Origin: Mactra quadrangularis
Lineage: Eukaryota; Mollusca; Bivalvia; Venerida; Mactridae
Assembly: GCA_025267735.1 (NCBI GenBank)
Contig: CM046307.1
Location: 35,269,231-35,333,230 of the forward strand
Length of the DNA: 64,000 nucleotides
Reading direction: 5' to 3'
In this document: piece after piece, positions 492 through 27,600 of the stretch
Numbering within the stretch: position 1 is the stretch's first letter
Layout: each line of letters opens with the position of its first letter
Notes under the pieces: generated by a model
Told to the model about the DNA's origin: nothing
What the model saw: only the letters and a program-made list of their open reading frames with translations
Databases searched by the model: none
Program-made: the position numbers and the translations under genes

Positions 492-694
492 ATATGACAG
501 TGTTTTATCCAAGTGAATGGCGTGGTGAATACAGATGTCCTTCAGATTGTGATTATAATACAACTGTATCATTCTACGCGACACAGACTACATCTAGTAC
601 AGTTACTGGTATTCTATACATTCGACAATCAACTGTAACAAAAATACCAATGACAGGTTCCTATGCTTCATACAACAAACATCTCACATTACAG
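492..694 (+). CDS. A1 exon, first half of A domain
   Basis: Follows an AG at 490-491 and ends at CAG before GTAAGT. It has the A-domain opening (PSEWRGEY.C) and the GSYAS...LTLQ core. It lacks the NYT sequon and carries an extra Cys pair region (CPSDC). Unlike A2-A11 the domain is cut by a phase-0 intron right after LTLQ. The phase-1 start implies an upstream exon outside the window. Confidence 0.8.
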
Positions 695-3600
695 GTAAGT
701 TAATGTACATGTAGTATATTTGCTCAAAATCTTTCAGCGAGTCCGCATCATTATTATTTAAGACCATTCCGCTTCTTTTAGTCCTAATGGTGGAACTTTA
801 CTCTACAAATGCGCATTTCAAATTTCCAGGATCAGTAAGTGGGTTGACAGACCTATACAATATGTTGCTACGGCATTAAACCCAACTAAAAGTATGGTGG
901 AATATTATTTCAAAATTAATTTCTGCTTAAAAGAAATTAAACTCGCTACCTTTCATTAGTTGTTCCCTTGATAATTAGCTAAGTTCATCATTATAAAATA
1001 TTTTTTCGTATCTTCATTCAGAATAAAGATCCCATGGCTATCATTATAAGTGGTCGAGTGTTTACTCATATTGAATTAAATGGTCGCATGCTGTCATCAC
1101 TAGATATAAATGGAGCAGTAATGTTTACTTCTCATTCCCAACAACAATCTTGTCATGGATCAGTAAGCGATTTAAAAGAGACATGTACACTAACCATGAA
1201 TCGTCATTCCGGTAAGTACTTTTACGTACATACATGTATTCTGTCTGATTTTGCTGTTGCTTCTGTTCAAAGACATCAGTCTTATTCTTGACAAAGATAA
1301 AAGATAAAGGAATCTTAAATTCCCGTGTAAGAATGACACTAAAGACAAACAGCAAATCAAAAAGAATGTCAAATGTCAAGGAAAACAATATGTAGTCAAT
1401 CTCCAATATTAAAAGCGCTGTGATTCCAAGGAAAACAATATTTAACACATTTCCAATGTAAAAAGCGCTGTGATTCCAAGGAAAACAATATTTAACACAT
1501 TTCCAATGTAAAAAGCGCTGTGATTCCAAGGAAAACAATATTTTACACATTTCCAATGTAAAAAGCGCTGTGATTCCAAAGAAAACAATATGTAACCAAT
1601 CTCTAATATTTAAAGCGCAGTGATTCCGTCAGGTTTTTACTTCGATATTTGACTAGTCAGCGACTTATGTTCTGATCGGTCTTGTCGTGTAAAAGTTCGA
1701 AGAAGTATAATAAGAAATTATTGTAACTTTAACTGGACATAGACTTGCCTTATCAAAAAAATAAATCATTTGCCAAAGACTTTTGGCTGTGAATTGATAT
1801 AATACAGATATGCATTGCGTTCAAACATGACGAATTCTAAATGATAAACTAATAATCAAATATAGTTTATGACCTGTAACAATTAGGTATACGTAGTACC
1901 ATCCAAAAATTAAACAGTGAATCAACATATGATCCAACATACATGTGTAATTTACCTAGCGGCTTAAATAATAATGTTGGAAATAACTTCATTCTAATAC
2001 TGACATTGTGTTTATTTCTATGGTTACAGTGAGTTTTGATGGTTGTAATGGACATGGTAGTTGCTGGAGATATGGTCCACGTAGAAATGATTACACTTGT
2101 TGTTGTGAACCAGGTAAATAGTTGTGTTACATTATTTGTATGATTTATGTACGATGTATGCTTCATCTGGAGGTATTTAACTAACATTTAGGTCTTGACT
2201 TTACTGTCTAAGTGTTTAGAGTATTAGGATAATTGTGCTCAGTCTGGTTTTAATGGTGCTTTATATCATTTTTCGACATTTTGTGAGTAATATTGATGCG
2301 GTTAGTTGATAGTCTAAATGTTCTGACACTAGGGAGGCTTTAATATCTAATATATGTTTAGTCAATGCAAATTCTAATAAATCTTTATCATTATAAACAA
2401 TGATATTTTAGTGATTTGAATTCAACCAGTATTTCCAATTAAAGCACGCATAGTATCCTCTGATTATGATTTAAAGATATGGCAATAACCGAGAAGCTGA
2501 TATTGATTGATCATTGTATCTATTTATGTTGTTAAGGATATTTTGGAGACAGATGTGAAATACATTACACCACAACAACAACAACTACCCAAGCTACAAC
2601 TACACCTACTTCTACGAGTACCACAACCAGTACTTCAACTTCTACATCCACGTCTACTTCCACATCTACATCGACTACACTTCCAACAACACCAACATCT
2701 AAATCAACAACTTCTGATGCACCAAGTACATCTACTCCCACTTCTGCTACAACGACAACAACTGTACCATCGACATCATCATCAACTTCTACTACTACAG
2801 CTGTTCCTACTAGAATAAGCAGTTCAACTACATTAGCTCCAGTAACTTCCTCTTCAACTATGACTATACCTTCTACATCAACTACTATGGTATGTACCAT
2901 GACCATTTGCTTATTTTACAAATGTGATGTCTTAGGTCAGTTCAAATTATTTACTATTTATTCTTGCTTAAATGATAGAATAGCTTTATCGTGAAGCTTG
3001 TATGTATGAAAGGAAATACGAAGGAGATTTATATAACCAATACATGTACATATTAAAGTGAACAATTTTTATACTGTACTAATTTATTTTAGCTCGATCG
3101 TGATACAAGCTATTACAACTTAGATTAATCACGTTCGAGTCTGCTTCCTGGTCATCAGTATTAAGCTAGCAAGGTAAAGTTTCTTGCTCAAGGAAACAAC
3201 GGGGTAGGTTTTTGGTTTGATTCGAACCAACGCGGGACTAGCGATCCAATGATTACCAGTCCAACGTCATAACCACTGAACAATTAATAGCAAGAGGCAT
3301 GCTTAAAAATTCTATCATACAGGCCAATAAAGATGGTGATTGAACGTTATTAGTTTTGTATTGTCATCCTTCTTGGAAATCGCGTACAAATTTTCTAAAC
3401 ACTGGCTTAAACATGAAAATTTGTTATTCCATTCCTCAATGATGTGCAAAACTTACTTTTGTTATAGAACTGCTTTGTTCAAGTCCAGCTATTTAACATG
3501 CAGCAATATGTATCATTCGTGTCATCTGGAATTCACAACAGCTATTTTTTCAGTAACATGTAAATTTGATTTATACAACAGTTTATTGAGATTGTATGCA

Positions 3601-6600
3601 ATAATTTGTTTGTTTATACATGTATATAATTGAATAAACTTGTAAACTTGAACTTCAAATCTTATAGGCACCTACATCTACATCTTCAAGTAGTTTAACA
3701 ACAACAACAACTACTACAACCCCTTCAACTACAACAAAGACTACATCGACGCCTACCACTGTCGCATCTTCTTCTCCAAGCACAACCATTTTACCATGTA
3801 CCCCAGCATATAATTGTAGCATGCATTATGCTTGCAGCACGTCAGGCAATAAGATTTGTGCTCCAGGATGGACTGGACCTAATTGTGATCAACTTGTACC
3901 GCATGGATCTGCCGACTGTGATGTTTATGATTGTATGTATTGTTTTGTTATATTTTAATTTGGCTACATAATTGAATATTAAGACTGAGTAAACATAATC
4001 TAGGTACATCCTATCCAATTTTTAGCATCGTATTTATTGAAACTGCTTGTAAATCATAGTGCATGTAATTCAGCTTTGTGATTATGTTAAACTTAGTTGA
4101 TTTATTCGTGGTAAGTGTCTTGCACAATTCTTTTTTTTCTAGTAAAATTGTTTGAAATGCAATGTGAAACTTTTCTACATAGCTTGATGATGCTCAATCT
4201 TGTGGCCTACTTCATTTAATAATAAAGTAGTGTTCGGTTGACTGTAATTTTCATCGTCCTTTAACTGTCGTAATGGTGAATATTATTTTTTTTAATTGTA
4301 AGTTTATCGATGTCATCTCGAAGTATGTGACCCTTAACGTATGCTATAACACCTCGGTGAAGTGATGTATGCTTAATTTCTTACTAAAAAAATTGCTATT
4401 CAGCATAGAATTTGAACCAGAAACAGCATTTCTATCCTGAAGAGTTTTTTCTAAATCACTGGACAATTAGGATTTACATTGATACTTAAAATAAAAGCAT
4501 ATTTGTTGAAATCCAATCTGAGAGCATAAACAAATTGCGTAAACAGGTGGAATGTCATATTTTCCAAAACATTTGAAATAGTATATTTTTTCAGAATTAA
4601 GAATGTTCATTCAATAAATTGAGTAATGATTAGCAATCATTATTTACAGCGCGACTAAATCACATATATAATAATAAAGTTTTATATTCTTATAGTGGAT
4701 GAATTTCTTCCAAGCGAGTGGGATGGGAATTACACATGTGCCGATGACAATACTGAAGTTAAATTTATCCTGAACATAACTAAATCATCTAACAGCATTG
4801 CAGTGAATGGCGAAATGTACATTGATGGTAACACCTTAGACATGATGGGATCATTTGCAACTTTCTTTAAAACGTTCTCCATACAAAGTGATCAAGCAAT
4901 TAACAATCAAATTGCTCATCGTAATTTTACTAAAGTTGAATTAAATGGTTTAGTAAAAAGTTCTATATTTATTGAAGGAGCAGTTGTGTTTACAACTGAT
5001 AATGGTCGTTACAATTGTTCAATGGAATTAAGAAGACAACGAGGTAAGACATTTTAACATACATTTGTAAGGGCGTATTATAACACTTTTCATACTTAAA
5101 ATGTAAAAAATTTGTTGGTTAAAACATTAGATATTATTATAATACAGTGGTTATTCATCTGGCAATTAATGTTCACTTAAGAATTGAGTCGAGTCTTGGT
5201 TTGCCATTTGCTCAAATTCACCATAAAAAGTACATATTCCAGTAAATTTTCATGTTACATTATATGTAATCAAAATTAATAATCTGAATTATGCGGATGT
5301 TTTAAACAACACACTTGAAGTAAAGAGGACATAATATTTTTCTTAAAGATTAACATTTAAAACATTTTACTTTTTTCAGTATTTTCATCTATGAATTGGT
5401 GTAATGGTCATGGAAGTTGTCAAAGATATGGATTTACCAAGCAAGAATATATTTGTTGCTGTGCTCCTCGTAAGTTCTTGTTTTCTTCATATTATAAAAG
5501 TATTATGACTTATAATTACCACTGATCCATACATTTAATCTGGTTATAATGTTTTATGAATCACTCTTTTATGTTAACTGACTTGATGTTGATGAAAGTT
5601 AAAATTCAAATTTCTTCTTAATGAGCGTACAACATTTAAATGACTTTCATTTTGTCAACTACACTTTTTGTGTCTTTTTGAAAAGTAGATGTAACTTGAA
5701 CATTCTTCATCGTTTTCATATTTCAATTTCAGTGTACAGTGGTCAACACTGTGATATTGGACCAACAACATCTTCAACAACATCAACTACATCAACGACA
5801 TCAACAACTTCTACCTCAACAACTTCTACAACGACATCAACAACGACGTCGACAACGCCTTCGACAACGACCTCAACTACAACAACTCCTTCTTCAACGA
5901 CCTCCACAACAACTCCTTCTATATCGACCTCTACAATAACTCCTTCTACATCGACCTCGACAACACTACCATCAACTACGTCTTCAACAACAACCAAGCC
6001 ATCAACTTCTGTAATACCATGTTCACCAGTCAATAATTGTAGCACACATTATACATGTGGCCCACAAGGTCAGAAGATATGTTTAGCTGGCTGGTCAGGA
6101 GCTAATTGTGACATACAAGAAGTAAATGGAGTAGCTGATTGTGATATGTTTGATTGTAAGTGATCTCAGATCTATATATTTGTTATTGTTCACTGCATTC
6201 AAAGTAATTCAGCATATTCATGTGATCTTCAGAATTAAACAAAACCTTCTTCATTCTAACAGCCGTCAATTTTAAGTAAATGTTCAAATAGAGCATAAAA
6301 TAACAGTTCCATTTTGTTGTCCCAAATTCTCGAAATAGCCTGTGATCTGTTTTAATTATTTACTCTTAATGCTCTACATAGATTATAACCAACCTATTTA
6401 ACTACTCGATTCTATTTGTTTCTCTTCTTCTGTGAATATTGAAATGCAAAAGTACAAAAGATAAATATATAATGTAACTGTTTAGTTGTCATCTTACACA
6501 GATTTCGGTACGACATAACCTTCTTAAACCGATGAGTTGTTTATAAAATTACTCATCTTTGTTCAATCAATGTTTGATTATACAAAACTTTAGGCATTCT

Positions 6601-9600
6601 TTTAACATCTACTTTTAATAGATGATGTATTCATACCCAGTGAATGGGATGGAAACTACACCTGCACAGATGATAACCAACTGATTAAATTTAAAATGAT
6701 CATCAAACAAGCATCTAGTAGCATAGATACAGAAGGTGACATTATAATAAATGGAACAACATTTCCCGTAGTTGGTTCGTTTGCAAGTTTTCTAAAGGCA
6801 TTCACCCTACAAGCTTCTAACCTAGTACCAAATAAGATAAATGGAAGAAATTTTACAAAAGTAGAAATAAACGGACTATTAAAGTCACCTATTTTAATTG
6901 ATGGAAAAATCATCTTTACCACTGACAATGGAAGATATAACTGCGACGTTCAACTTCGCAGAAAAGCAGGTAAGTTTATTAAGCATTTTTTCTCAATTAT
7001 TTTCAATGAAATTGTGATAAGTTAACTGTAACTTACATGTTTTGTTTTATCTTGACTTTTGAATAATTGACATACAGTCGATTTATTGTATTTTCTTTGC
7101 TTTTAGAGCCTAAACGTGGTGAACATTACAGTTGGCTATCAGTATGTATACCAAGCACTAAAATTTCTGATTAGTTATCCACATGTAGTTGTTCATTATG
7201 TTGTCATTTTAATATTAATGGTACATGTAACCTGTTTTAGGCAAACGTAAATCATATTTACATTATTTTTTCTAAATTAGTATTTTTATTTACAGTAGTA
7301 TATTTCTGTTATTACTTTACAGTTAATATTGCATGGTGTACTGGCCATGGAAGCTGTTACAGAAATAGCAGAGATAGACAAGATTATGAATGTTGTTGTG
7401 ATAATGGTAAATATTTTGGATTTTGTCATATTTAAATATTGATGTTCAATCTATATATATTATGTTTAAATTAAGAAGTAGTCCAAAATCACATTTTGAC
7501 TCTCGCTCGCATGTTTTAAGTACTATGTTTTTCACGAATGTCCTTAATGGCTTTAAAATAGGTGTGTTCGCAATAATTGAAATTTACAAATAAATTTCAT
7601 ATATTTTAGTTTTCATTTTAATCCTAAGGCCACACCAAATTGATCATATGTTCTATGGATTCGCTCGCACCTTAATTTTGAGGGTTTTTACAAAAAAATA
7701 GTTTTATTTCCTCGCTCGCTCATAAAAATTTGGTCAAACCGCAAGTGAATAAAGAATTTTTTTCTTCGCTCGCTCGCCCCATTTTTTTCAGAAAAATCCA
7801 TAGAACATATGATCAACTTGTTGTGGCCTAATGAAAGAAATAGATCAGTTAAATAGAAAAAATATCAAAAACTTAGTTAAGTAATATTTATTTTATGAAA
7901 AAGTGAGTTTAAAACTGTAAACTTTGATGCAAGTTTACATGAAGTACAGTGAAAGCAATTAAAACAAAATAATCCAATCGGATCTTGTACACCCCCGTAC
8001 AGATGCACTAAGAGTTAAAAATACAAGTTAATATATACATTGTCTGAAATCGATATAATAAAATATCCGTGTACACTAAATGTCTAAATTTCCAAAGTAC
8101 AGCTTTACACAAAAGAAGTAGTACAAACAATAAGTATGGACCCATGTAATGTAAGACGTAATGTAATGAATGAAAGGTGTTTAATTGTGTAACCAATTTT
8201 TATGGTATACAAATGTATTTATGACTGTACATTGGTGTTAGACCATAGGGGAATTCTACCTAATCACGTTGTAAATGAAATTACCAATTTTAACTTGTCA
8301 CTGATAAAGAACAGGGACCGTTTCATAAGAATCTTACGTAAGATAGCGAAAGTTTCGTAACTAGGTTACTAACGTTAAACTTACTTTTACGATTAGAGAG
8401 TTTCAAAGACGCTCTAGTAACTTGAAAATCTTTGCTACAATACGATCTGACTTAAGTCAACAAGAATTGGTGAAGCACTCAAATTTTGATTTGAAATTCA
8501 TGATTTGTTTTTAACACAGAAACTTCAAGACATGTATGGAATACAATATGTTCCACACAATTCAAAAAAAATTTACACCAACGAAGAGCAGAAGCTCTCG
8601 AAGAAAATTCACGAGGGCTATCCCGAGTTACCATACTCATGATTTTTTAATACACGACCAATTCAAACAAAGGTGACATGACTCAAATAAATGGTCATCT
8701 GCTAACAAAACCTCGGCCAATTTAAGATGGAACCGATGTTCCCACCTGGCGTCAAATAAATACCTCTAGACAATAAATCATCAAAACTACAGATATATAA
8801 AATTATTATTTCATAAAAAATAAACCATTCTTAAGACATTTCATCGAAAACTTGCGATCTTTAGATAGAAGTTCAGTTCGCGTATGTACACACATTTTGG
8901 TAATTAGCCCTGACTTCCGCAAAGGTGTGTAATGAATAAGTTTTTCAATACACACCTCAAAATGGACACCCAAGTTTTTATTACAGTGTCCGCTAGTTCG
9001 ATTCAGAGATGTAAAGTCTGCCACTGATTTAAAAAATGTAAGCCTCAGTGCATCTAGAGTAATATTAGTGCATTCTATATCTGTATATGTATTCTGAAAT
9101 TGTTCGCTAAAATAAAAGGAAACTTGCACAGATAATAACGTTTTATTTCTATATTCACAGATGATGTGAAGTACCTAATATGCATAGTCCAAAAGATTTT
9201 AGACAAGAATGATGATTATACATTATAATATTTTTAGCACTGCATTTACCCTTACCAACTTTTTGGGGTTCGGTACTTAAAGGTACCATTCTGTAATTTT
9301 AACATTAACATAGTCCTTTCTTTCGTACAATTTTCTTTAACTTCTGTACGAAGAAAACAATGATTTTTTTAAAACTAGACAAGAGGCAATATAACACACA
9401 ACAATGAATTATGGTAATTATTGTTCGCATTGATTTACTATACAGGTTATTCTGGTAATAGATGTGAAGTTTCACCTGTAATTCGTAGATCAACCCATTT
9501 AACTACTACATCTACTCAAGGACCAACTATTCCAACGACTTCAATAGCTACTTGTATACCTGTAAATGACTGTACTGGTCATTATCAATGTGCAAGTAAT

Positions 9601-12600
9601 GGACAGAAAGTATGTATGCCTGGATGGACTGGTACACTGTGTGATATACCTATACCTAATAGTGTTGCTGATTGTGATTTATTTGACTGTAAGTGGATAT
9701 TGTATAATAAAGGCTTAAACAGTATAAATCTTATATAATTCATTTTTATGTAATCAATCTTTTTTTTAATTAGATATTGTCTGCTTTAAAGAAATACAAA
9801 ATGCAATAAAAATGTAAATAAGTCCACCTTAATAAATTATTGTATGTATAAAAAAGGTATCAAAGTTATACCCAAAACGTGTACGCCTATGATATGTGTA
9901 AAATGATCTTTACAAATTTACTTATTTTTCTGTATTCTGATGAAAAGGCACGCATTTTAATCATTCCAATGGTGCAAATTGTGCTTTTGTTTCTTATTTC
10001 AACAGCCATTTGATGTTTTGCAAGCACAATACCGAACGATTACTTTTTGTTATGTACCCGTAAATAAAGTATAATTTATGACCTTTGATAATAAACCTTT
10101 CTCTCTGTTGTAGCTCAAGATTTTATTCCAAGTGAGTGGGATGGTAACTACACATGTCAAGATGATAATATTTTGGTACAATATAAAATGAATATAACTA
10201 AATCTTCAAGCAGTATAGGAACCGTTGGTACTGTGTTGATTGGTGGTCATACATTTGACGTGTCTGGATCGTTTGCTACTTTCTATAAAACGTTTACACT
10301 ACAAACACCTGACCTTATAACTAGTGCAATAAATGGTCGCAATTTCTCTAAAGTTGAATTAGATGGTAAACTTGAAACAGCAGTACTGATCAAAGGAGTT
10401 ATATTATTTCGAAGATCTAATGGCGATGTTTATCAATGTAACACTGAACTCCGTAGACAAAGTGGTATGTATAAGTCAAATAATCAAACTGAAACTTATT
10501 AGATGAAACTTCTCGCTCCCCGACTAATCGATTGAGATTAATACATTATAGTTTATTCTAATGTACTTATAGTATTTCTACATTGTTTGCGTTCCATGTC
10601 GTTATGACGATAGTACGTATATTTTCCAAATAAATGTAGAGATATTGATGGTATAGCCGATTATATACATGTGTTGTTAATTACATAGTTTCCATAAGGG
10701 ATGTTTGTTTATACATTACAAAACCATTTAGACTTTTTCACTAATGTCTTATATAAAATTTTCAACTTACATTTTCATTAATCCTTTTACTTTCGTAATT
10801 GAGTTCATGTGTCATAATTATACTTAATTTATTCAAGTATACATGCAATTTATCTATTACAGATCTAAACATATTTTTGGATTTAACAAGTTCAAATTTA
10901 TTTTTGTATTTTTATCCTATAGTTCACATTGATTGGTGTGGTCAACATGGTAGCTGTTACAGATATGGTCAGCAACGGAATGACTTCACTTGTTGTTGTG
11001 AACCAGGTATTAAGAACACTATAAATAACATAAAAGTATACTAATTTTTTATGTATTGCATCACCGTCAAATAAAGTTTCTTTGAAATAAACAGCTTGCA
11101 TGTATACAATTCATGTGTTAGTAAATTATATTTTCTTAGTTTGTCGGTGAAAAACACTGTTTGGTGACATGTAGTTATCATACTACGAAGGCTAGTGGCA
11201 TTCTCTCCCATGTGCATTTCAAAAACGGGTTTATTCATTTGCAATTCATGGTGGATTGAATGCTATACATGTATACTGACTTTGCTTTATATGATATCTC
11301 TATTTAACTTCTGCATTTGCTTATCAATTTCAGCTCGGAATAAAAGTACACAGCGACATGTTTTCATTATGATGTCATTTCCTTCGAGTGTGTAATCGTT
11401 CATCTAAATTGTTTTAAAGTATTTTCTATTAAATTGTCACTATTTTAGGCTACACCGGAGCCCCATGCCAACCAAGAGTTATAACAAAAAGATCCACGCA
11501 TCTTACTACAGTTACAACAAAAAAACCTACTATACCACCTACTACTTCTCAACCATGTATTAATGCTGTATCTAACTGTACAATGCATTATAACTGTGGT
11601 CTATTGGGTGAGAGGATTTGTATTGATGGTTATACAGGCACCAACTGTGATATTGTTGTACCAAATGGGCCAGTTGATTGTAATGTTTTTGACTGTAAGA
11701 TTTTTCTCCTTACTTCCATTTGTATTAAGTTTCGTTTAGAATAAACACACTTATGAAATGAAATGGACATTACTTTTCCAACATGGAATTGCCTATTTGA
11801 TTACTTTTAAGCATGTTTACTGGCAAATATATAAATGTATTATGATATCGTAATAGTTTTTATAACTCCTATAAATATTGCTCAAAATTTCGATTATGTA
11901 TTTAAAAATGATTAATAAATACAACTTCATTGAGCTTTCCTTAGAGAATACTGTTTGCTGTTAAATCATTTTCATCGTTTTTTTTATTCAATTATTTTTA
12001 TGATTGTTTATGATTGAACTTCCTCTTTGTTTAATCATTAATGTTTTGAAGTGTTTAACAATGTTACAGGTGACATTTTTAATGATATTTTCTGCTCGAT
12101 TCTAATAATAAGTATTATTTTATACCAATTATGTTTGTTTTTTATTTAAATGTTTGTTTCTCTTTTAATTTATTCTAGCTGACGAATTTATATCAAGTTT
12201 ATGGGACGGAAATTATACTTGTACCAATGATACAAGTATGGTGACTTTCGTAATGAATATAACAAGATCTTCAAGTTCCATTGATTTGATTGGTGATATG
12301 AATATAAGTCAAACAAATATATTTACTGATGGTTCTTTTGCTTCAGCATTTAAAATCCTTACATTGCAAACCTCTTCGTTCATAACGTATGAAATATTTA
12401 ACAGAAATTTCAGTAAGGTTGAACTGAATGGCAGACTAGTATCGCCTATCTATATAGAAGGTGTTATTGTTTTCACGGATGTGAACGGAAAATACACATG
12501 TCCATTGGAACTACGAAGAGGACCAAGTACGTATTCCTTTAACTTAATTTGTTTTTTAATTTGCCACGAAACGAAATTTAACCTTCTTGTCAAATTTTAT

Positions 12601-15600
12601 CACCACCAATTGTCTTGTCTTCTGTGCATGCATTTTATTACTGTGCAAACTTTATTTAACTGAACAATAAATTGTTTGAAAAAAAAACCTTTCATTTCTT
12701 AAGCTTAAAAATCAGTACCTATTCTGGGGTTTAATCATTTACACAAAGTATTTATTTAATGTTTTGTAATATTTCAGTTTTGACTGATTTTAACTGGTGT
12801 AATGGTCGCGGTATGTGCCATAGATACGGTATTGGAAGAGAACAATATGAATGTTGTTGTGATCTAGGTTTGTTAAAAGTGTTATTTCCTTGTTTTGTTT
12901 CTGACAAAGTATTTGTGTGACTCATGTTTAACAACCAAAACCACATTTAACATGTTTTTCAGTGCCATATTTTATAACCGGATGAATTAAGTCAACTAAT
13001 ACGTACATACTATGCATACTATTATCAAATTATGATTTTCTTTACATACAAATTGAAAAATTACTTAACAATGTACGCGGCACTGATCGAGTTAGAACAC
13101 TTTAAAAAGTTCTGTGAGTTGCAAGTTGTGAACAAACCTGCTTTCATACATTACCATGCGATTGTAACCGATGTGTAGTTTAATGAATATAAAACTTACC
13201 ATGAAATAATGATCTATAATTAGTTCGACTAATATTTCAATTAGAAAATCAATTAGCCATAAGATAACAGTTGTCTCTTTATGTTGATAATCGCAGAAAG
13301 AATGTTGGTTAACTGATATCGTTCTTTTCCAAGAAGGCCCTGGAATAAATTGACCCCGTATCCGTCGATCATGCCCATACAATTCAAACGTATCTTAGAT
13401 ATTCCGTTATAATTTTGAGTTTCCAATGTAGAGGGAGAAGTTGTCAGTTCCTTGTAGAAGGATAAGATCGTACTGGCTGGAAAAAAGAAAATGTTCAGGA
13501 AAATGGTCGGGTGCCGCACAAGACACTTAAAAACGTTGTGGTAATGACCGTAAAATAGAAAAAAAACGCACATGTATATTTTTTGTTTGATAGGTTTTGA
13601 AGGGAAAACGTGTGATCGAAAAACAACAACAACTACTACTACAACTACCACCACTACAACTACTACAACAACTACTCCTTCAACAACCACATCTACTACA
13701 ACTACGTCAACAACTGCTACAACACCAACAACAACAATGACATCTATACCGTGTACACCAACAAACAACTGCTTTTCACATTATACATGTGGAGCATATG
13801 GTAGAAAAGTATGTCTACCTGGATGGACTGGACAAGACTGTAATGTACAAATACAAGGAGGATCAGCTGATTGTGATTCTTATGGTGGTATGTTGTCTTA
13901 GAAACAACTCTCTTTAAAGAGTTAGAAAAAAATAGTGACCAAATGACTGTCAAAAATAAACTCAGACGAGTAAATATTAAACAAAAATAGTCTAGAATTA
14001 GTCTCAGTTAATATTTGACAGTTATTACGTCATGTCAAGATTTGATGGAATCAAATACATTAGATAGATAACTAGATAAAATAGTTTGTCATATATATTT
14101 GTTGCTGGTACGCTGGTTTATGTATGAAAATCCTTTCTGTTAAAATTGTTTGATATAAATGCTGTGGGTATTGCTGTGCCGTGGTGATGATGCTTGCTTC
14201 AATAGGGTCTGCATTTAGTTTCAATGATACACACTGAATAGTTCTTGAATGAAAAAGTATGATTAATTGACTTTTTTATTTATCAATCTAATACAACAAA
14301 ATGTGCTATATATATCAAAATCAGTTTACAGTATTGTATAATGTCAATTATTTTAAAACATGTCTCTACAGGATATTCAGTGTTTAATTTGTAAATGTAA
14401 ACTCTATGATTGCTTTAAAAGTTGAAACGCTTGTTTTGCATGTGGCTTAATGTAGCTTAAACAGAAACCATGTATCCAAGGAAAAAAACAGATAATAGGA
14501 GTATTCTCATTTCTTGTATATTTCTAGTACATATATGTTTTCAGCTACCTCTAGGATGTACATAATCACGTTTTTAAGATTAACTGGTTTACCCAAAAGA
14601 GCATTAGAAATATTTTGTGGTAGTGCTATTAGTCACAGTCTTTTTCGTTTTAAATGTTTGAATACAATTGCTAGTTACTTTATCTATAAGTTGTATTTAA
14701 TATCTGGATATTGTTCCAATGTTATTTTCAGTAACAGCTTTGCTACCAAGTGAATGGACTGGCAATTATACTTGCTCTGATGACAATATAAACATCAATT
14801 TTTATATGAATATAACAAAGTCAGATAAAATAGACACAGTTGCCTCAGCAATTTTCCCTGGACAAAACTTTTCCATGTCTGGAACATTTGCTTCAAAATT
14901 TATGTTTATAACGCTTCAAAGTGATGGGGTTATTTTTGACACTATTGCTAGTAGGAATTTCACTGATTTTGAACTAAATGGGAGGTTAGAGTCAGCTATT
15001 TATATTTCTGGTTTTGTGATTTTTACTCTGGACAATGGAACACAGGCATGTCCAGTTCAATTGAGAAGATTGTCAGGTAAATATAATTATTTTACGTCAG
15101 GATTTGTTTACTTGTATTAACTACGTATCATTAATGTTTTAACTTTTTTTGTTTAAAATACTGCTTAAAGTTTTGAATACGTGTTACATTAAAACACATA
15201 TTTTACATATTTACTGCAATATAAACATGATATATTCCTTTTGTGATAATAGTTTTAACACGCTTTGTAACTTGAACATCTTTAGTTGCCAGAGATTGGT
15301 GTAATGGACATGGAAGTTGTTACAGATATGGTCTAGACGTTGATGAATATACTTGCTGCTGTAATGCTGGTATGTACATTGTACTTCATGATAGTTCTTA
15401 AGTTCAAGCTCAGATATCTGCATTGTCCAATGTTAAACTCCTTACTAAAACGTCAGACATGCCAGCATATGCAACAAATATTGATTCGTTCGTTTAAAAT
15501 GCTTCTTTTCTTGGTTATAATACATTAAAATATAGAAACTGTAACCTGACACGTGTATGTTGCTTCATGCTTTTGTTCGTCAATGTTCCAATAATAACCC

Positions 15601-18600
15601 CGCGAAAGTCGACTGGCTAATTTTTCATGAAAATGCATATTTTTAAAAAGGAACTGTAAGATAACATATTATAATAATTCAGTTCAAGGTATTGGTTTCC
15701 TTTTATTTCCGAATTAACAATATCAATGCATGATGCGATTCTGATGTAAACCAATTATTTTTTAACTTTTTTCAGAATATAAAGGTCACTCCTGTGAAAT
15801 TGGACCAACAACTACCTCAACCACTACAACAACGACGACAACAACAACACCATCAACAACTTCTACCACCACAACCCAATCAACAACTACATCTACAACA
15901 ACAACTACGCCATCAACAACGTCAACCACTACAACTCCTTCTACTACTACTACAACAGCCATGCCATGTACTCCAATGGATGATTGTACTACACATTACA
16001 CGTGTGGAGCACATGGTATCAAGACATGTATGCCAGGATGGACTGGTAACAATTGTGATATACTGATACCTTCTGGGGCTGCAGATTGTGACAGTGGTAC
16101 GTATTGTTGTCATTTATAGTTAAAGACATAAGATTGCACTTAGTTCTTTTTTAGTTTATTGTAATGTGCGTTTAAGACAAAGTAAATGAAATAAACATGA
16201 GACTCACATGCTATTGGTTAAGTAAAGGTAGTTATGCTTTCTATTAGATACACTATATCATTCAATTAGCTAGTTTAAAATTAATAGCGTGATTTATTTT
16301 CAGCTATGGATCTATTGCCAAGTGAATGGAGTGGAAATTATACCTGCCCAGATGATAACTTTAATACATTGTTTAAAATGAACATTACAAAATCAGATAA
16401 AATAGACACTAAAGGATCAGTGTTTATACTTGGAGATACATTTAACATGTCTGGATCATTTGCTACTGCTTATAGTTTGATTGCGTTACAAAGTGATCAT
16501 GCAATAACACAAGCTGTTGCTGGAAGGAACTTTACAGACGTTGAACTTGATGGTGTTTTAAAATCACCAGTTCTTATTGAGGGATTTGTCGTGTTTACTT
16601 TGGCCACTGGAGTTTTGCAGTGCCCAGTTATACTTAAAAGAAAAATAGGTAATTAATTTTAACAGCTGTTTAAAAGATCTATGTTATTCAATTTATCTTT
16701 TACAGGCTCTTTCTTTTGAGCCGTGTGTAAATCTATCTTCATATACTTAGTTTATGTTTAATTCTTTAATCTCGATCATAAAACAAGTTTTATAAACTTA
16801 TATCAATCAATCTTGATTCTGCTTTCTCATCCCCATGTACTGAGCAATTACAATACAGTTCCTTTAATTTGGAAAAGCAATAAGGTAGATTTCAAATGTG
16901 ATGGAACCAAGCCGGTGCTTGCTACCCAATAATTACCCGTTCAACACCGTATCCACTATATTACGCCTGCTATCTATATATAAATAGTTAAATTGGTTTA
17001 AACAAATAAGTAGTTTTGTATATGGACAATTAAAGATAGTTTCAATTGAATTCGTGAGTTAAGCATTGACTAAATATTATATATATGACATGTACATATT
17101 TTACAAGTATTGTAGTTTATCTATTGACAATTTATTTGACTACTTAATGTATTTCAGTGCATAGAGACTGGTGTAGTGGTCATGGAAGTTGTTACAGACA
17201 TAGTAAAAAAGTTGATGATTTTACTTGTTGTTGTGATCAAGGTTAGATTATCATTCGAACTATCTGTTGGTTCATTTTATTTATTGGTTTACGGAACGAT
17301 TTGATGGTGTTTACATACAGCTTTATTCAAAACAATAGAACATCAACGACTTTTTCATAGACAATATTTCATTTTACAAGTTTATCATTTGAAAGTATTC
17401 ATGAAATATAATAAACATAAAATATAGGAAATTAGCTTTCTGAAAGAAAACCACCAGTATCTAACGTATCGTTTGTTTTAGCGTATCTTTTTTGTTTAAG
17501 TGAAATCTAATACAAGGTTTATATTCTGACTAGTGGAATATCTTTTGAATAACTCTTACGTTTTTATCTAAAAGTCTAACAAGTATATTAATTGTCAAAA
17601 ATAATCTATGTGATTTCATTTTGTCTAATTGAATTAACTTATTAAACAGGGTATAAAGGTCAAACGTGTAACATTGGGCCTACTACACCTAGTACAACCA
17701 CAACAACAGCCATGCCATGCACTCCAACAAATGATTGTACAGCACATTATACATGTGGTGCACATGGTGTTAAAGTGTGTATGCCTGGATGGACCGGAAC
17801 CAACTGTGATGTACTAATACCTTCTAGTAATGCAAATTGTGATAGCGGTATGTATTAATTTATGGTTGGTATTGTATGAAACCATTGTAATGTAAAACCA
17901 ATGATTTTTTTATTCAAGGGAACATGCGAGTGTCGGACGATTTTCGGTTATAGGTAAAAATGTATTCGTTTTCTTAAAGATTATATTGTAGTTGTCAAAT
18001 TTAGGAAATCGTGTAAATTGTGTCTGTACACACATACATTGTACCTTATTTATATAGTCAACGTTTCACTTACAGGCTACTGCCCAATTGTTATCGACCA
18101 TTCATCTGCTGTAGTTACATACATGTACGTATGCATGTGTTTTAGGACAGAGTATAGTGTTTAACGTATTTTTTGTTATTGTTTTCTTTCAGCTATGGAC
18201 TTAATTCCAAGTGAATGGAGTGGAAATTATTCTTGTCCAAATGACAACTTCAACACATTGTTTAGAATGAACATAACAAAATCAGATAAAATAGACACTA
18301 AAGGATCAGTGTTTATTCTTGGAGATACATTTAACATGTCTGGATCATTTGCCACTGCCTATAGGTTGATAGCATTACAAAGTGATCATGCCTATACTCA
18401 AGCTGTTGCTGGAAGGAATTTTACAGACGTAGAACTTGATGGTGTTTTAAAGTCACCAGTTCTTATTGAGGGATTTGTCGTGTTTACTTTGGCCACTGGA
18501 GTTTTGCAGTGCCCAGTTATACTTAAGAGAGAAATAGGTAGGTTTTGTGTTTGTCATTCTTTTCTTGCCTTTTACTGTTTTGACTATTATAATTGATATG

Positions 18601-21600
18601 TGCCTACTTATGAAAAACGTTTAAAGAATAATATCCAAATGGGAGTATGTCATATGAATTGAAAACGTATACAAATTATTGAAAACTCTCAGCAAACGGC
18701 AGAATATAATGATTAATATGTTTGTATGGTTAATATAACTGGTACATTGTAGCATTACGTGTTCTTTCCCTATGGCTAGTACTATTTTCTATCTAATTAA
18801 AGAGTATCTTTTTCGTTTATTTCAGTCCATATAGATTGGTGCAGCGGACATGGGTCATGCTATAGACATAGCAGTAGAATTGAGGACTTTACATGCTGCT
18901 GCAATAACAGTAAATACTTATATATATTTTCTTTGTATATCAGCATGAAAAAAATCATTTAAACTAGATGTGTACTTGTGTTGATTATGGTGATTTATTG
19001 TGTGCTAACTGGGTAGACAATTAATTTAAAGATGCAATTAATAAGAGTACAGATATACTGTTAAAACATTTTAATTATTGGCGCGAAGGCTAATGTTAAA
19101 ATATCCTTTGATGTTCCGTTTATGTCGTCAATATTTTATAAATGGTTTTTACATGTATGTTTAATCCAAAACTCAAACTCTTTACCCGTTTTTTTGTTCA
19201 AAATGAACTGGTTATTTGACTATGTTATAATACATATATTGAAATGACTTTAGATTTCAAAGGCATCACTTGTGAAATTGGTCCCACGACATCAACATCT
19301 ACCACAACAAGTACATCAACTTCAACTAGTACCACCACCACAACAACACCTACAACAACAAGCACGACTACAACAACAACTCCTTCAACGACTACAACCT
19401 CAACTACAACTACAGTACCCACAACACCAACGCCATCAACAACTTCTACCACCACAACCCAATCAACAACTACATCTACAACAACAACTACGCCATCAAC
19501 AACGTCAACCACTACAACTCCTTCTACTACTACTACAACAGCCATGCCATGTACTCCAATGGATGATTGTACTACACATTACACGTGTGGAGCACATGGT
19601 ATCAAGACATGTATGCCAGGATGGACTGGTAACAATTGTGATATACTGATACCTTCTGGGGCTGCAGATTGTGATAACTTCGCATGTAAGTATCATATTC
19701 GATGATAAATTAATGAACTCTGGTTAGGAATAAAATTAGTACTTATTTATTATAGTTGATATGATTTAAATAAAACGTTATTTAGTTAAAAAAGTACTTA
19801 AATTCAGCCTGTTACATTACATGTTACATTTTCCGTGTACAGTTCCAGGATATTCTCATCAAAATTGAATGTTTAAACATACTTTCTTTTTACATTTACA
19901 CGTTTCTTAGTATGAAACAATGTATTTGTAAGATTTTTCATTCTTCTAAATGCAAAATGAAATCAATATTTATATATTTACAGCTAAAGTCTAACATTTT
20001 GTTTCTTATAGCATTAGACCTGTTGCCAAGTGAATGGAGTGGAAATTATACGTGTCCAGATGATAATATCAACACATTGTTTACAATGAACATAACAAAA
20101 TCTGATAGAATAGATACTGTGGGGTCTGTGTTTATACAAGGACAGAAATTTAATATGTCTGGTGCTTATGCTACGGTATTTTACCTGCTTACATTACAAA
20201 GTGATCACGTGGTAGCACAAGTTGTTGCTGGTAGAAATTTTACTGATGTTGAACTTGACGGTGTATTAAAATCACCAGTTTTCATAGAGGGTTTTGTAGT
20301 GTTTACTTTGAATAGTGGTACATTACGTTGCCCTGTTCAACTTAGGAGATCAGCAGGTAATTTATTCGATGTTGTACAATGGCTTTTAGTTATTTTATAA
20401 TTAATTAGTGTAGTTCTAGTTTTGAAATATTGCTTTCTAAATTATTCAAACTAAGTTACATAGTGGTATTATCATTTCAACGTTACTTGTATATATAAGA
20501 TAACATTGATGATTACATTGTTGTCATAAAATTTGCTAGTGCCTCGTATTAAAAGCATGTCTTAAGATCATATTTCGATTGCATTTCTTTCTTTCTGAAT
20601 ATCATTTTTAATATGGCAATATTATACTGACCTCGAACACGATACTTTGCAAACTTCGTTTTATCTCATTCGAGTTGATATTTATTACTGAAAGTAAGTC
20701 AATAAGCATGACTTAAGCGTGCATTGAAAATTCGGAATGTACAAACATAATCGTATACACGATTAACTTCAAAGATAATTTTATGCTATGAAGACCAAGC
20801 ACGATTACTAATAATTAAAATTACTTTGCAGTGAAGTATGATTGGTGTAATGGACATGGTCGTTGTTACAGATCTGAAAGTCATGCTTACAACTTCACTT
20901 GTTGCTGTGATCAAGGTTAGAGTATATAGAAATGTTTGTTCTACTATCCTTTGAGATTAAAACCTTTCTTTTAAATGTCAAGTTTATCTTCATGTTTATA
21001 ATGTACTTTTAAGATTACCCTACTTAAAAACTTAACGAATTACATTTTCTGGTGCTCTTTTACAAGAATTACAATAAGGACTGTGCATTGCCTATGAACC
21101 GTAAATAAAATGAAATATTTTTATAAAGAATGTAAAATGTCTGAATAATCTGTTAAACTACATTATACATTATGTACATATTTCAGTTTTGAATTAATAT
21201 AAGTCCGGGTAATGTCATTTTGTTCTTTGTTTCAATCATTTACCTTAAATTTGTATCAAAATCCAGTTTTAGTTTAACTTCAGTTATATAACAGCACCGT
21301 TCTCATACATTATTTTGTATATAAACTATCTTTTTTCTCACAACTTACGTGATTTCTTTGAAGACTACAAAGGCGAAACGTGTGAGGTAGGACCAACAAC
21401 AACTTCTACATCGACAACAACAACTACTACTACTTCAACTACAACTCCTTCTACTACAACAACAACAGCCATGCCATGTTCTCCAATGGATGATTGTACT
21501 ACACATTACACGTGTGGAGCACATGGTATCAAGACATGTATGCCAGGATGGACTGGTAACAATTGTGATATACTGATACCTTTTGGGGCTGCAGATTGTG

Positions 21601-24600
21601 ATAACTTCGGATGTAAGTTTTATATTAAGTTGTACTTTATCCACGACTAATACTTTGATAAGATATGCGTTCAATCTAGCAAAATGTATGCAGTTCGAGA
21701 AGTACGTGTTAAAGATTTACATATACTTATAGGCAGTTAAAATGCTTTTAATTGTAATAGTAATTGGCTTTTATTTGGAGTTAAATATTGTACGAAATTG
21801 TATACATTGATGAAGGCAGGTCTGTTTCATTTATAAGCACGAAAGCATCACTGCATTAGAGTATTAATGAAAGTTCCTCAATTTCTTAAAATTGCCCATA
21901 AAATATGCTGTATATAAATAGAGATAACGTTCTTTTCTATTTATAGTATTGTAAAATAATTATCAGTCATGTATATACAGCATGTATCATTTCAATTTGC
22001 TACTTTAAATTTATTAGCGTAATTCATTTTCAGCTTTGGCTTTATTGCCAAGTGAATGGAGTGGAAATTATACATGTCCAGATGATAACTTTAATACATT
22101 GTTTACAATGAACATAACAAAATCAGATAAAATAGATACTGTGGGGTCGGTGTTTATACAAGGACAGAAATTCAATATGTCCGGATCATACGCTACTGTG
22201 TTTTACCTTCTAACGTTACAAAGTGATCACGTGATAGCACAAGTTGTTGCTGGTAGAAATTTTACTGATGTTGAACTTGACGGTGTATTAAAATCACCAG
22301 TCTTCATAGAGGGTTTTGTAGTGTTTACTTTGAATAGTGGTACATTACGTTGCCCTGTTCAACTAAGGAGAGTCGCAGGTACGTGTTTAGTGATATATCG
22401 ACTTATTTCAAATTTGAAATAATAACATAAAATCAGTTTGTTTTTGAAATATTGACTTTAATGTTTCTTGTGTTTTTTTAATAATGTTTCCAAAATTATT
22501 TTCAGTACTTCTTTTTGTGCTTTATGCTTAGATTGGCGTATGGTATGGTTCTGTATGTGAGTAAAAATAGAATGAGCTTATTTTTATTGTAGTCCTTTTG
22601 TTTTGAAAAGTTGCGCGTAAAGTTGTGTTGCCATTCAAATGTTATTTATTGCTAAACAATTGCATAATTTAAATGAACTTACTTACATTCTACTACAGCT
22701 AGTGAAATTATACTGTCTGTTTTTCAACTGTATTATAATGCTTTCTGCTATATTGTTTATGATAAGTGTTTTGTTTCAGTTAAATTTGATTGGTGTAATG
22801 GACATGGAAATTGTTATAGATATGGTAGTCATGTCGACAAATTTACTTGTTGTTGTGACCAAGGTAACTTGTGATATATCATCCTCTTTTTGCTTAAAAT
22901 AAATAACATGAGAGTCAAACACTAGCAAGTGCTTTGTTCGAATCCATAGGAAAGGTATTTTGACTTAAAATACATTTACTACACAGCCGTTGATTTTGTG
23001 AAGTGTGATATTCCTAATATTTCAAAGCATATCAATATGTTTGTGCATTTGTTGTTCCAAGCTTATTTTTATAGTCAGCAATTGGGATATTATTGTCACG
23101 AAGCACTTTTCCAAAACAAAAATGAAAGAAACAGAATGTTTTTTTTTTATAATTTTGCTGTATTTTAAGTTCATTAGCGTTCATTATACTTAATTACTTG
23201 ACAGATTTTCATGGTAACGCGTGTCAAATTGGACCAACAACAACAACTACTACAACAACAGCCATGCCATGTACTCCAATGGATGATTGTACTACACATT
23301 ACACGTGCGGTCCACATGGTATCAAGACATGTATGCCAGGATGGACTGGAAACAATTGTAATATTATCATACCAACTGGGGTCGCAGCCTGTGATAACTA
23401 TGGTTGTAAGTAACTAACGGGTTAGGTACACCTGTTGTACGTCTATGTAATTATAGTACCGTTTATCGTTAACATCAATTGGCAGAATTATATCTCGAAT
23501 TGATTCTTCATACTTTCTTACACGATGATAAATTTATGTTGTTGTTTTATTCTGACTTGTTTATCAATAATTCGTGTACAATTAAAAGTGTATGACACTG
23601 GTTTTCTCCTATCAAGGATAATAATAGATAGGTGAAGGGTAAGAAATGTACTGTAATGAATCAGCAAATTATCATTTGTTAATAGCATACATTTATTAAC
23701 AATAAACTGTGACAGTCTATGAATTTTGTATAATGGTTATATCACAAATAATGATCCATTAAATGGCTACAACACTTAAATGTGTTCATAAGAAACTCAT
23801 TAGTCTATGTTGTTTTTATTATAAATTTGATATAAACTTAACCCATTTGAGGAGCTCCATTGTGACACAATTTCTACAAATCTAATTCAATGACATCGGT
23901 TTTATCTTTGATTTTAACTAATCATATACTTATATTGTTGTTTATTTACTTGTTCATGATGAATAGATGATGAATTTTCTTTTCAGAGACAAATTATTAA
24001 CTTTTTTAAATTTCATTTTTGTAGAACAAAGTAATACTTGAAACATTCCATTGTTTCAACATTAGTTGGAAAGCTTTTAACAATTTACTCACTTTATTTT
24101 ATTTTTGGCTGTATACTTGTATTCTTTATAAAAAGAAGTAATTCGATGTAAGATCATCTCAGTCAAATCATAAATTCCTTTACGAATGTTCCTTGCAATT
24201 ACAATTTAAAACTTGGCAAAAATAACTAATTGAACTTGTTTTGATAATGTTAATTATATGTCAAACTTATACTTTTAATGTGTGTGAGTAATAAGAATAT
24301 AATTTTAAAACTTGCAGGTAATTGACAGGTATAAGTATATAGAAAATGTTGCATGCTTAATGTTGCTATTGGATTTTAGCTTAGCTGTATGTGCGAGTTA
24401 TGCTATGGTTATTGAGAATAGCTTACATGCTGAAATCATTTCTTTAAAATTGTGAAAACTCTCAGCAATATTCGGCAACCCTATCGCTTTTCATTTCTTA
24501 TAGATAGTTGTTACATTTAAAGGAGGAAATACATATGTTTAAAGGATAAGCAATTTTTTGTTCTACCGGATTACTTATATATTATTTACAATTTGAGGAG

Positions 24601-27600
24601 GTACATTTCTTCATACTTGAAATTTGTTTGTTTTATTTAATCAACTTTATTTCAGAAAAGAACAATTATTAGCTGTTTTTCCTACAAAGTGTTTTGCATG
24701 CGGGTTAGTTAAGAAATATTCAAAACGGAAACGAGGATATTGTCTATGCAGTATTAACACTTTTCTATCTATTAATATATATTATCTGATAGTTTTGCAA
24801 TATAAGATACTAGTTTTAACTTCTTAAACCAATATCTGAAGAATATTGCTGAGAGTCTTACAAAAAAGGACCATCTCACTGTAAACCCTTACGAAATTTG
24901 TGTTTCAGCTTTGGATTTATTGCCAAGTGAATGGAGTGGAAATTATACATGTCCAGATGATAACTTTAATACATTGTTTTCAATGAACATAACAAAATCA
25001 GATAAAATAGATACTGTGGGGTCAGTGTTTATACAAGGACAGAAATTCAATATGTCCGGATCATACGCTACTGTGTTTTACCTTCTAACGTTACAAAGTG
25101 ATCACGTGATAGCACAAGTTGTTGCTGGTAGAAATTTTACTGATGTTGAACTTGACGGTGTATTAAAATCACCAGTTTTCATAGAGGGTTTTGTAGTGTT
25201 TACTTTGAATAGTGGTACATTACGTTGCCCTGTTCAACTAAGGAGAGTAGCAGGTAATGTAATAAATGCAAGACTGCACATAATGACTTCAATTAAAAGT
25301 TAATTTATTGATTAGATTATCTAACTTTATTAAGAATCAATTCTTTATTTAACAAATGTTAGTGTGTGTTAATTAATTGTGTGTTTCTTTGCTGTGCTTT
25401 GCTATTTGTGTTTTAGCACTGTGTATCTAAAAAGATTTCGCAGTTTAATTTGTAAAGCTATTGTTTCATGTTTACATTTTTCCTAATTGTTCCTGTATCG
25501 AAACCATTGGATTCATAGAGCTGTATCTTTTCTTATTGAAAACAAAATGCAATCGTATTTATTCATAAATGTTTTGCAAAAATTGATTTTTCATCTTATT
25601 AAGGTATAAACAAAAAATCTCTCTTTTTGTGTCACTAAGTTTTTGATTTGTGTTATTTTGAATGACTTAATGTCTTTAAATCACTGAAAATCGTCGGTAA
25701 ACATAACACAAATATAGATAACGTTATAAATGATTTGCATTTTAATTTCCATACGTTTAAGGTTTCCGCTATTAATTGGTCATAACGAAAATAGTAACTA
25801 CGTAGGTATAAGCATAGATTATACTCTTAATTTAGACCAATATTTATTCAATTTCAGTAAATATGGATTGGTGTAATGGACATGGAAGTTGCTATAGATA
25901 TGGAAGTCATGTTAATAACTATACATGCTGCTGTGATCAAGGTAAACATACATGCACTGCTTTGCATATAACTATGGAGTTTCAACATTACTGTACAAAA
26001 AATAAACAATCCAAATTAGTGTTTGGTTTAATATATTTGCCGCTATTGGTAGTATTGTAAACCCTTGAATTAAAACTAAAAATTAGAAGAAACAAAATAA
26101 AGTATGAAATATCACGTATTTAGCCTTTAAATTGGACTTACATTGTAATCAAATTTTGTTTCTTTCTTTTAACTAATTCAGATTACCAAGGTGATAGATG
26201 TGAAACATCTATGAAAACAACATCAACAACTGCTGCAGTAACATTACCTGCTTCAACAAAACCACCAAGGATAACTCAAGGTCAAGTTATATCAACCTCC
26301 TCGCCGTCTACAAAGAGTTCAACAACCACATCTACTACTACTACAACGTCAGCACCAGTTACAGACAAGAAAACAACAACAACAAGTGCACCATCGACTA
26401 GTTCATCTACAAGAGAAACAACAACTGTAAGAGCGACCAACAAACCATCAACAACATCATCAACAGTAAAACTAATTCCAACAACATCAGCTTCGTCGCC
26501 ATCGACGTCTTCCACAATCACGTCAACAACCACGTCAACTACGGCATCAACAACAACTTCTACGACATCTCCATCGACTACAACAACAACTTCTACGACA
26601 ACTCCATCTACTACAACAACAACTTCTACAACGACTACTCCTTCAACGACAACAACGACAACTCAACCTACGACAACATTACCTTCTACTACAACACTAG
26701 CGCCATGTCCTGGACATTTTACATGTACAAGACAAGGACAACAAACGTGTTTACCATGGTTACAAGGACCTAACTGTAATATGCCAAAACCTGGGGTCAG
26801 TTCTCTTTGTTCTGAGTATGACAGTAAGTGTTCCTTCTTCTTAAGTACTTTACACATTTTATAATTGCAAACTTATCAACAAAATTAGACAGATTTAGTT
26901 AAATTCATGTTCCTTCATGTTCGCCAAAAAATTAAAAAAGCTCCAATTTTATAACTATTTTTAGTAATAAGAGTGTTAATGGTTAGTAATTTGTACAACT
27001 AAAACTGTAGGTCTACAGTTTAGTTTATTTTTTCTAAAATATATAAAATGCATGTGGACATAACAAAGTATGCTCAGGGCATACTGATCAAATGTAAATT
27101 ATATACTCAGTAAATTGTCCATTAAAGGGACAGAATATAAAACTCGGTGTTTATACAAGGACAGAAATTTAATATGTAAACAAACTGAGTGTTATAAATT
27201 ATATAATTACAATTGTAGATGTATAAAAATCTAAGTTTTGACTTCCAGGTGCATATGATATAACAGGTGTATGGACTGGTCAATATGATTGTAACTCAAT
27301 TATTACCTTATTCAAACTATCATTGACCCTATCTAGTACTGGCACAACACTTGAAGCGCAATTAGAAGTATTTAACCAATTCTCATCACTATCAGGAATA
27401 TTTGCCTCGTATTTTAAATCATTGGTTATAACGAATGATACTAATCATGTTGAAATCAATGGTGTGTTTTCTTCACCGTTGAGTATGCGAGGTGTTATAA
27501 TGGTTGGTGCTGATCTATCTACAAGAATGTCATGTCCACTTACCATGACTCGTACTGATGGTAAGTACTTTCATAAATATCTATCCAATTTTAATATTTT

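Follow-up and report, generated by a model that had tools for sequence, protein, structure and literature searches.

The window analysed here, 64,000 nt of Mactra quadrangularis contig CM046307.1 (positions 35,269,231 to 35,333,230), contains twelve copies of a domain, A, on the plus strand between positions 492 and 27560. The copies alternate with EGF-like (E) and stalk/DSL-like (D) exons (Table 1). We placed A2–A12 as single open exons with AG/GT borders, a length divisible by 3 and phase 1 at both ends. A1 is the only split copy, with two stop-free exons separated by a phase-0 intron. The first-pass annotation had described a twelve-fold array of a domain almost always encoded by one phase 1-1 exon, and both points hold. 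Indeed, the modules in general lie on phase 1-1 exons, with one extra intron each in A1 and D1; since module exons have phase 1 at both ends, units can be added with the frame kept intact. We found no 13th copy of A in 184 kb around the array.

Table 1 Exons of the A/E/D array (window coordinates; D matches are E-values against the DSL family PF01414)
Feature	Position	Strand	Evidence
A1, first exon	492..694	+	AG before, GT after; profile E 1.7e-18
A1, second exon	1022..1211	+	profile E 8.4e-18
E1, first exon of CCC-type EGF-like module	2030..2113	+	
D1, first part: EGF end, Thr-rich stalk	2537..2889	+	exon end picked by phase
D1, second part: stalk, DSL-like module	3668..3932	+	PF01414 1.4e-9
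A2	4696..5043	+	exon borders, profile; pairs with metagenome ORF P0004
E2	5380..5469	+	
D2: EGF end, Thr stalk, DSL	5733..6155	+	PF01414 2.1e-8
A3	6622..6969	+	exon borders, profile
E3	7323..7406	+	
D3	9446..9688	+	PF01414 1.1e-11
A4	10114..10464	+	exon borders, profile; pairs with metagenome ORF P0008
E4	10923..11006	+	
D4	11449..11694	+	PF01414 1.5e-5
A5	12179..12526	+	exon borders, profile
E5	12778..12867	+	
D5	13594..13887	+	PF01414 7.9e-12
A6	14732..15076	+	exon borders, profile
E6	15286..15369	+	
D6	15776..16096	+	PF01414 2.3e-10
A7	16304..16648	+	exon borders, profile
E7	17158..17241	+	
D7	17650..17847	+	PF01414 3.3e-11
A8	18193..18537	+	exon borders, profile
E8	18826..18909	+	
D8	19254..19685	+	PF01414 1.6e-10
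A9	20012..20356	+	exon borders, profile
E9	20832..20915	+	
D9	21364..21612	+	PF01414 2.8e-10
A10	22034..22378	+	exon borders, profile
E10	22780..22863	+	
D10	23205..23405	+	PF01414 9.7e-10
A11 (copy modelled by AlphaFold2)	24909..25253	+	exon borders, profile
E11	25858..25941	+	
D11: EGF end, long Thr/Ser stalk, weak DSL	26182..26823	+	PF01414 7.4e-4, 20.2 bits; end picked by phase and GTAAGT
A12	27249..27560	+	exon borders, profile

A profile of all 12 copies, run against the six frames of the window, matched 13 ORFs corresponding to the 12 copies (E ≤ 8.4e-18), and the next-best match had an E-value of 0.54. Leave-one-out profiles recovered 12/12 copies, most weakly the A1 halves (1.4e-10 and 3.1e-11) and A12 (1.1e-12), the most divergent copy at 22–31% identity to the others. 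W-x-G-x-Y-x-C and C-x5-R are present in every copy, and the NYT/NYS and NFT/NFS sequons in all ten of A2–A11, in agreement with the motifs and sequons reported in the first-pass annotation. A1 and A12 have the fold motifs without the sequons, which are kept in most relatives that span those positions. We treat the structural role for glycosylation, which the first-pass annotation considered probable, as a possibility. There are four cysteines in A1 and two in each of A2–A12. For seven of the ten A pairs printed, dN/dS was 0.07–0.19, suggesting selection on the reading frame; the other three pairs were saturated at silent sites.

We found 46 relatives, all of them metagenome ORFs. Protein searches of the genome with A11 and A12 gave no match outside the array. 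The exact pattern WxGNYTC occurs at 10 places in the genome, of which nine belong to the array (a reversed control pattern occurs once). The tenth, at C175:13087, gains no support from the protein search as a further copy. A downstream module, B, had no relative among 84 candidates in a protein search, and its model (pLDDT 71.8) had no convincing structural match.

The first-pass annotation had proposed building a profile from the 12 copies and searching Pfam; no established family was convincingly matched. The Pfam searches covered nine of the 12 window copies, 10 relatives, three more divergent relatives and the second half of A1, none of which gave a convincing family. A 31-row A alignment searched at E ≤ 10 listed 14 families, each from a single member and the best at 0.0094, with filters that drop most matches above E 0.1. 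Eleven copies searched against NCBIfam gave a single chance match (0.081), and PDB sequences searched with 11-row and 55-row profiles gave no convincing family (adenovirus fibre, 0.083 and 0.54, respectively). Rfam gave no match, and none of 37 pattern matches in viral contigs was a relative. We conclude that A is uncatalogued: neither Pfam, nor NCBIfam, nor the set of PDB sequences lays a convincing claim to it.

By contrast, its predicted fold is a known one. The AlphaFold2 model of A11, a prediction from 11 sequences with a pLDDT of 87.9, has eight strands and no helix in an output that distinguishes only helix, strand and other; this bears out the all-beta fold suggested earlier. The view that A cannot be assigned to a known family thus stands for sequence but not for fold. 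The predicted strands form an antiparallel up-and-down barrel of the calycin type. The best Foldseek match was nitrobindin (E 1e-3, TM 0.52), E-values being modest throughout, and the neighbours include avidins, nitrophorin and an amine-binding protein. We regard the eight-stranded, avidin/calycin-type barrel as a confident prediction. In the calycin signature, as given in PMC2954199, a first-strand Trp stacks on a last-strand Arg or Lys. The strand 1 Trp and strand 8 Arg of A fit this signature in residues and spacing and may stack in the same way. Conservation on alternating strand faces is no more than suggestive (permutation p 0.054) and carries no weight in this reading. Note that the register argument from Trp–Arg and Cys–Cys is one fact, two equal spacings, with one partner placed by that spacing.

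The intervening D exons all match DSL (11/11 in the window), and 10 of the 11 score above the curated cut-off; D11 falls under it, at 20.2 against 24.2 bits. None of these matches is complete, since all 11 begin at profile position 13–22. An additional exon just upstream of the window also matches DSL and is near complete (profile 3–46). Both EGF-like modules tested score under the Pfam cut-offs. The DSL stretch of D3 also passes the EGF_Teneurin cut-off.

Similarity between copies is in places confined to exons. At the DNA level the A10 exon is 98.6% identical to that of A11, whereas the introns on either side look unrelated; the match runs just 6 and 3 bases past the exon. A7 and A8 are 91.6% identical, and D6 matches D8 at 97% over the last 160 nt of D6. 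From these alignments, the A10/A11 pattern perhaps reflects gene conversion acting exon by exon. cDNA-mediated conversion across several exons is disfavoured, since E10 and E11, the EGF exons that follow A10 and A11, are only 81% identical. A different account, which we consider rather unlikely, is that single exons were recently copied into old introns, or that silent sites are under unusual constraint. Exon-only copying would likewise leave unrelated introns, and the abrupt end of the A10/A11 match fits it; however, of the 60 bases preceding the exon, 78% are still common to A7 and A10, which means that some introns must at one time have been copied together with their exons. Silent constraint, for its part, is not general, because silent sites are saturated in A2/A3, A3/A4 and A6/A9.

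Three other identities for A or its gene have to be weighed. The DSL matches in the D exons and the upstream exon would suit a divergent Notch ligand of the Delta/Jagged type, with A as an inserted module. This is very improbable in our judgement: of at least 23 DSL matches listed for the genome (a lower bound, as 150 of 197 candidates were scored), the nine from the array begin at profile position 13–14 and the other 14 at position 1, and PMC8166818 puts genes that are exclusive to bivalves and carry DSL or tandem DSL domains on a branch separate from that of Delta and Jagged. If, instead, each barrel bound a small hydrophobic or charged molecule, like lipocalins, avidins and nitrophorins, the twelve could form a multivalent sponge or sensor. 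The binders among the structural neighbours and the apparently strong purifying selection are consistent with this, but we think it improbable. Large, strongly conserved side chains on one face of most strands of the model (Trp8, Tyr12, Phe23, Met25, Ile27, Phe/Tyr52, Leu81, Phe97 and Leu110) suggest a filled core, and the barrel of fibropellin, part of a comparable mosaic, reportedly binds no biotin (Yanai 2005, by its title in the references of PMC10336842). Least credible of the three is an immunoglobulin-like domain in which W-x-G-x-Y-x-C would be the Y-x-C of the Ig F strand. Its one attraction, a PDB sequence match to Fc receptor-like protein 5 (E 7e-4, 11-row profile), sums seven matches of 13–34 residues on one chain, each with an i-Evalue of at least 370, and drops to 0.17 with the 55-row profile. 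Moreover, the motif lies on strand 1 and not near the end, the eight-stranded all-beta model is matched by barrels, and 0/50 structural matches listed is titled as an Ig protein; some rows of another structural listing are antibody complexes, whose listed chains we take to be the antigen.

We therefore favour, as probable, an uncatalogued family of extracellular calycin-kind barrels, twelve on one chain, that would serve as a stiff spacer or assembly module. The first and last strands of each barrel would be clamped at one end by a latch of the strand 1 Trp and strand 8 Arg, and further along by a putative disulphide between the two conserved cysteines. The chain, presumably secreted, would carry CCC-type EGF modules, Thr-rich stalks, probably O-glycosylated, and DSL-like modules between its barrels, which might serve as glycan-coated spacers or assembly units of a giant extracellular protein. 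It is by analogy that we assign A an assembly role, and we infer that it would act in this way and not as a ligand of Notch or a binder of small molecules. A wider reading, to which we give slightly less than even weight, is that A founds a new calycin branch, with twelve tandem barrels on a giant extracellular chain and an array homogenised exon by exon, such that conversion acts on the long exons (A and D), passes over the intervening EGF exons of 84–90 bases as too short, and leaves the introns to drift. A pattern of this sort is a natural experiment on the repeat length that gene conversion requires. The domain family is a new entry, uncatalogued yet familiar in fold; if its barrels are passive beads, a binding fold has been turned into building material.

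A resembles the calycin superfamily (lipocalins, FABPs and avidins) in its predicted fold and in its first-strand Trp and last-strand Arg, but differs in having no family-level sequence match. In calycins a 3-10 helix caps one end of the barrel, a feature finer than the three classes output for A11. The lipocalin motif is G-x-W. This is missing from A, where the residue two before the Trp is Ser in 41/42 rows, and no lipocalin is among the Pfam matches. Nor is avidin (PF01382) among the 14 families listed for the 31 members at E ≤ 10, and hhalign of the A profile with avidin gave no support (probability 0.6%, E 0.093). The A11 model shares its barrel fold with the erythrocruorin linker chains 2gtl_N and 4u8u_N, whose C-terminal barrel in annelids we take to be Pfam Eryth_link_C. 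No such family is among the Pfam matches of A, the linker fragments have W-x2-C near their start where A has W-x5-C, and hhalign with three partial linker barrels found no similarity (probability 0.04%). Because the profile comparisons with linker barrels and avidin gave nothing, it is fold and motif that argue for kinship with calycins. The bivalve tandem-DSL genes of PMC8166818 are alike in their tandem DSL domains, and EGF modules scoring below cut-off would read as ‘DSL without EGF’; the parts of that paper describing them mention neither an A domain nor stalks, and A may tell what sits between their DSL domains. Fibropellins, finally, have an avidin-like domain in a similar mosaic, whereas the array described here has twelve barrels, interspersed among its other modules.

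A profile built from the twelve copies of the two-cysteine module A recovered all of them, bearing out the array proposed by the first-pass annotation. That annotation gave A no family name, conjectured an all-beta fold and took its glycosylation to be probably structural. Run against all six reading frames of the window, this profile matched 13 ORFs, corresponding to the 12 copies, at E ≤ 8.4e-18, and its best match outside A had an E value of 0.54. When each copy was omitted in turn, it was recovered by the remaining 11, the lowest scores being those of the two halves of A1 (1.4e-10 and 3.1e-11) and of A12 (1.1e-12). A2-A12 each occupy one open exon with AG/GT borders and phase 1 at both start and end; A1 is the only copy interrupted by an intron, and has just one. 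Four cysteines were counted in A1 and two in each of A2-A12. A 184-kb stretch of the chromosome, comprising the window with 30 kb ahead of it and 90 kb beyond it, yielded no further copy at E ≤ 0.02. When the genome (979 Mb) was searched in full with the A11 protein, 13 candidates were scored and 11 of them matched at E ≤ 0.01; with A12, 9 of 12 scored candidates matched at E ≤ 1. Every one of these matches lies within the array, so that A is confined to a single gene of the genome at the sensitivity of these protein searches. The exact motif pattern occurred at one extra place in the genome, on a different contig and at chance level.

Of 307 candidates in a first search of a 5.8-billion-protein collection, 36 passed E ≤ 1, as did 33 of 1304 in a second; pooled, they give 46 distinct relatives of A. 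None of the 46 has a Pfam domain or an informative name. They are ORFs of 79-176 residues, most of them on contigs <10 kb, as would be expected for single exons; for three of them longer contigs are listed, the largest of 707 kb. The 46 relatives were placed in a tree together with the window's 12 copies; this tree, based on few columns and with long branches for A1 and A12, paired A2 with the metagenome ORF P0004 (99/90) and A4 with P0008 (100/96), placed P0006 on the branch of A2 (94/83) and P0027 on that of A3 and A4 (97/94), and united A7-A11 as a group of window copies only (97/99). P0031 resembles A5 by eye, its placement being left open in the tree. For P0006, P0027 and P0031 alike, the longest contig listed has 9,496 bases, which hints at a second species with the same order of A copies.

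The calycins are the superfamily of lipocalins, FABPs and avidins. Their signature is a first-strand Trp resting on Arg or Lys of the final strand (PMC2954199). In a 55-row alignment, which comprised 10 window copies and 45 relatives (all but A1, A10 and P0042), Trp8 is conserved in 42/42 sequences, and Arg112 and Cys106 in 55/55. The motif W-x-G-x-[YF]-x-C is present in all 12 copies and in 33 of the 46 relatives, the remaining 13 ORFs beginning past the Trp, and C-x5-R is present in 58/58 sequences. Because the two motif spacings are equal, an antiparallel register of neighbouring strands that puts Trp across from Arg would also set Cys opposite Cys, in 12/12 copies. We infer that the predicted barrel would be closed by a disulphide linking Cys14 to Cys106 and by a latch formed of Trp8 and Arg112. 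Conservation of the Trp and Arg supports the calycin reading of A. Profile comparisons found no kinship of A with three partial linker barrels (the C-terminal barrels of annelid erythrocruorin linker chains) or with avidin; hence, we claim membership in neither family, and the likeness is one of fold and motif.

Judging from their codons, the A copies look to be under selection. Among the 10 of 55 pairs within A2-A12 that were printed, dN/dS was 0.11 for A7/A8, 0.07 for A9/A10, 0.08 for A9/A11, 0.19 for A10/A11 and 0.16-0.19 in three pairs joining A7 or A8 to A9-A11; silent sites were saturated in the other three. Exon-by-exon comparison covered A6-A11, the short EGF-opening exons E6-E11, and D6-D10, which carry the EGF end, Thr-rich stalk and DSL-like module. 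The background for 60-base flanks was 0.42 when shuffled, and random 60-mers had a median of 0.45 (95% <0.55, highest 0.90). Exons A10 and A11 share 98.6% of their bases, yet their flanks (0.49 and 0.46) are no better than background. Identity is 91.6% for A7/A8, 91.0% for A9/A10 and 91.6% for A9/A11 (flanks 0.45-0.55). The last 160 bases of D6, D8 and D9 are 95-97% alike (flanks 0.45-0.54); D10 is 88-89% like these three, and D7 75-79% like the other four D exons. E exons are at most 81% alike, E10/E11 included. A7 and A10 have an upstream intron stretch in common (0.78), and a few other flanks are slightly over background (highest E7/E10, 0.62). Within 16304-25253, near-identity is seen between the A exons of some units, and separately between the D exons of some, with differing flanking introns and short E exons. 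Gene conversion confined to exons, with the lack of intron similarity and a length threshold setting its limits, is possible and fits this pattern; the rival explanation is insertion of single exons in place of conversion.

Between the A copies, a CCC-type EGF-like module is encoded by an 84-90 base exon and the start of the next; Pfam EGF matches were under cut-off in the two tested of 11. The Thr/Ser-rich stretch that lies between A copies contains 20-59% Thr+Ser (9/11 D exons printed). Pfam DSL matched all 11 D exons, 10 of them above cut-off. The whole genome has at least 23 DSL matches (150/197 candidates scored), 9 of them from the array; among the matches listed, alignment starts at profile position 13-14 in 9/9 from the array and at position 1 in 14/14 others. 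Unlike the DSL stretches inside the array, an extra exon upstream spans nearly the whole profile. In a study of lophotrochozoan Notch genes (PMC8166818), genes with DSL or tandem DSL that lack an EGF domain were reported from bivalves alone, which makes a bivalve the likely source of the array.

Coordinates of the A array and neighbouring features
Feature	Position	Strand	Remark
A array	window 492-27560		twelve copies
A1	window 492-1211		
Extra DSL-like exon before A1	L009 (neighbouring locus):9131-9511		DSL stretch ~0.7 kb upstream of window start; near-complete profile match, 3-46
B array, ~90-residue modules	window 33219-63652, on to ~91 kb in neighbouring loci L011-L013	+	11 modules in window
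hAT transposase fragment	window 30925-31242	minus	PF05699, 1.4e-5; after A12
ORF	window 58853-59284	minus	
Minisatellite-like tandem repeats	window 59843-60372, 60771-61183, 63097-63233, 3-262, 1377-1627		outside exons named

The B modules, which lie downstream of the A array and all share its (+) strand, comprise 23 ORFs at E ≤ 0.02 across the 184 kb and are diverged (leave-one-out scores 7e-9 to 14). No Pfam match exceeded the cut-off, the 84 candidates from the 5.8-billion-protein search included no relative, and the model (pLDDT 71.8) had no convincing fold match. The minus-strand ORF beyond 58 kb, which by eye resembles the end of a LINE reverse transcriptase, has only weak Pfam matches under cut-off (DUF6451, 0.004). 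Among the tandem repeats are a 27-base unit repeated 19.5 times and a 40-base unit present in 3.4 perfect copies.

A secreted protein with a structural or adhesive function is what this architecture suggests: a mosaic of A barrels, putatively closed by disulphides, with beads of the EGF and DSL types and stalks rich in Thr. Putative glycans at the conserved Asn11 and Asn75 sequons, both missing from A1 and A12, would cover the barrel exterior. By analogy, we favour a spacer or assembly role for A over ligand binding, because the avidin-like barrel that joins EGF repeats in sea-urchin fibropellins has been credited with a part in assembly (PMC10336842). Like the fibropellins, with their avidin-like barrel beside EGF repeats, the A protein combines barrels with EGF modules.
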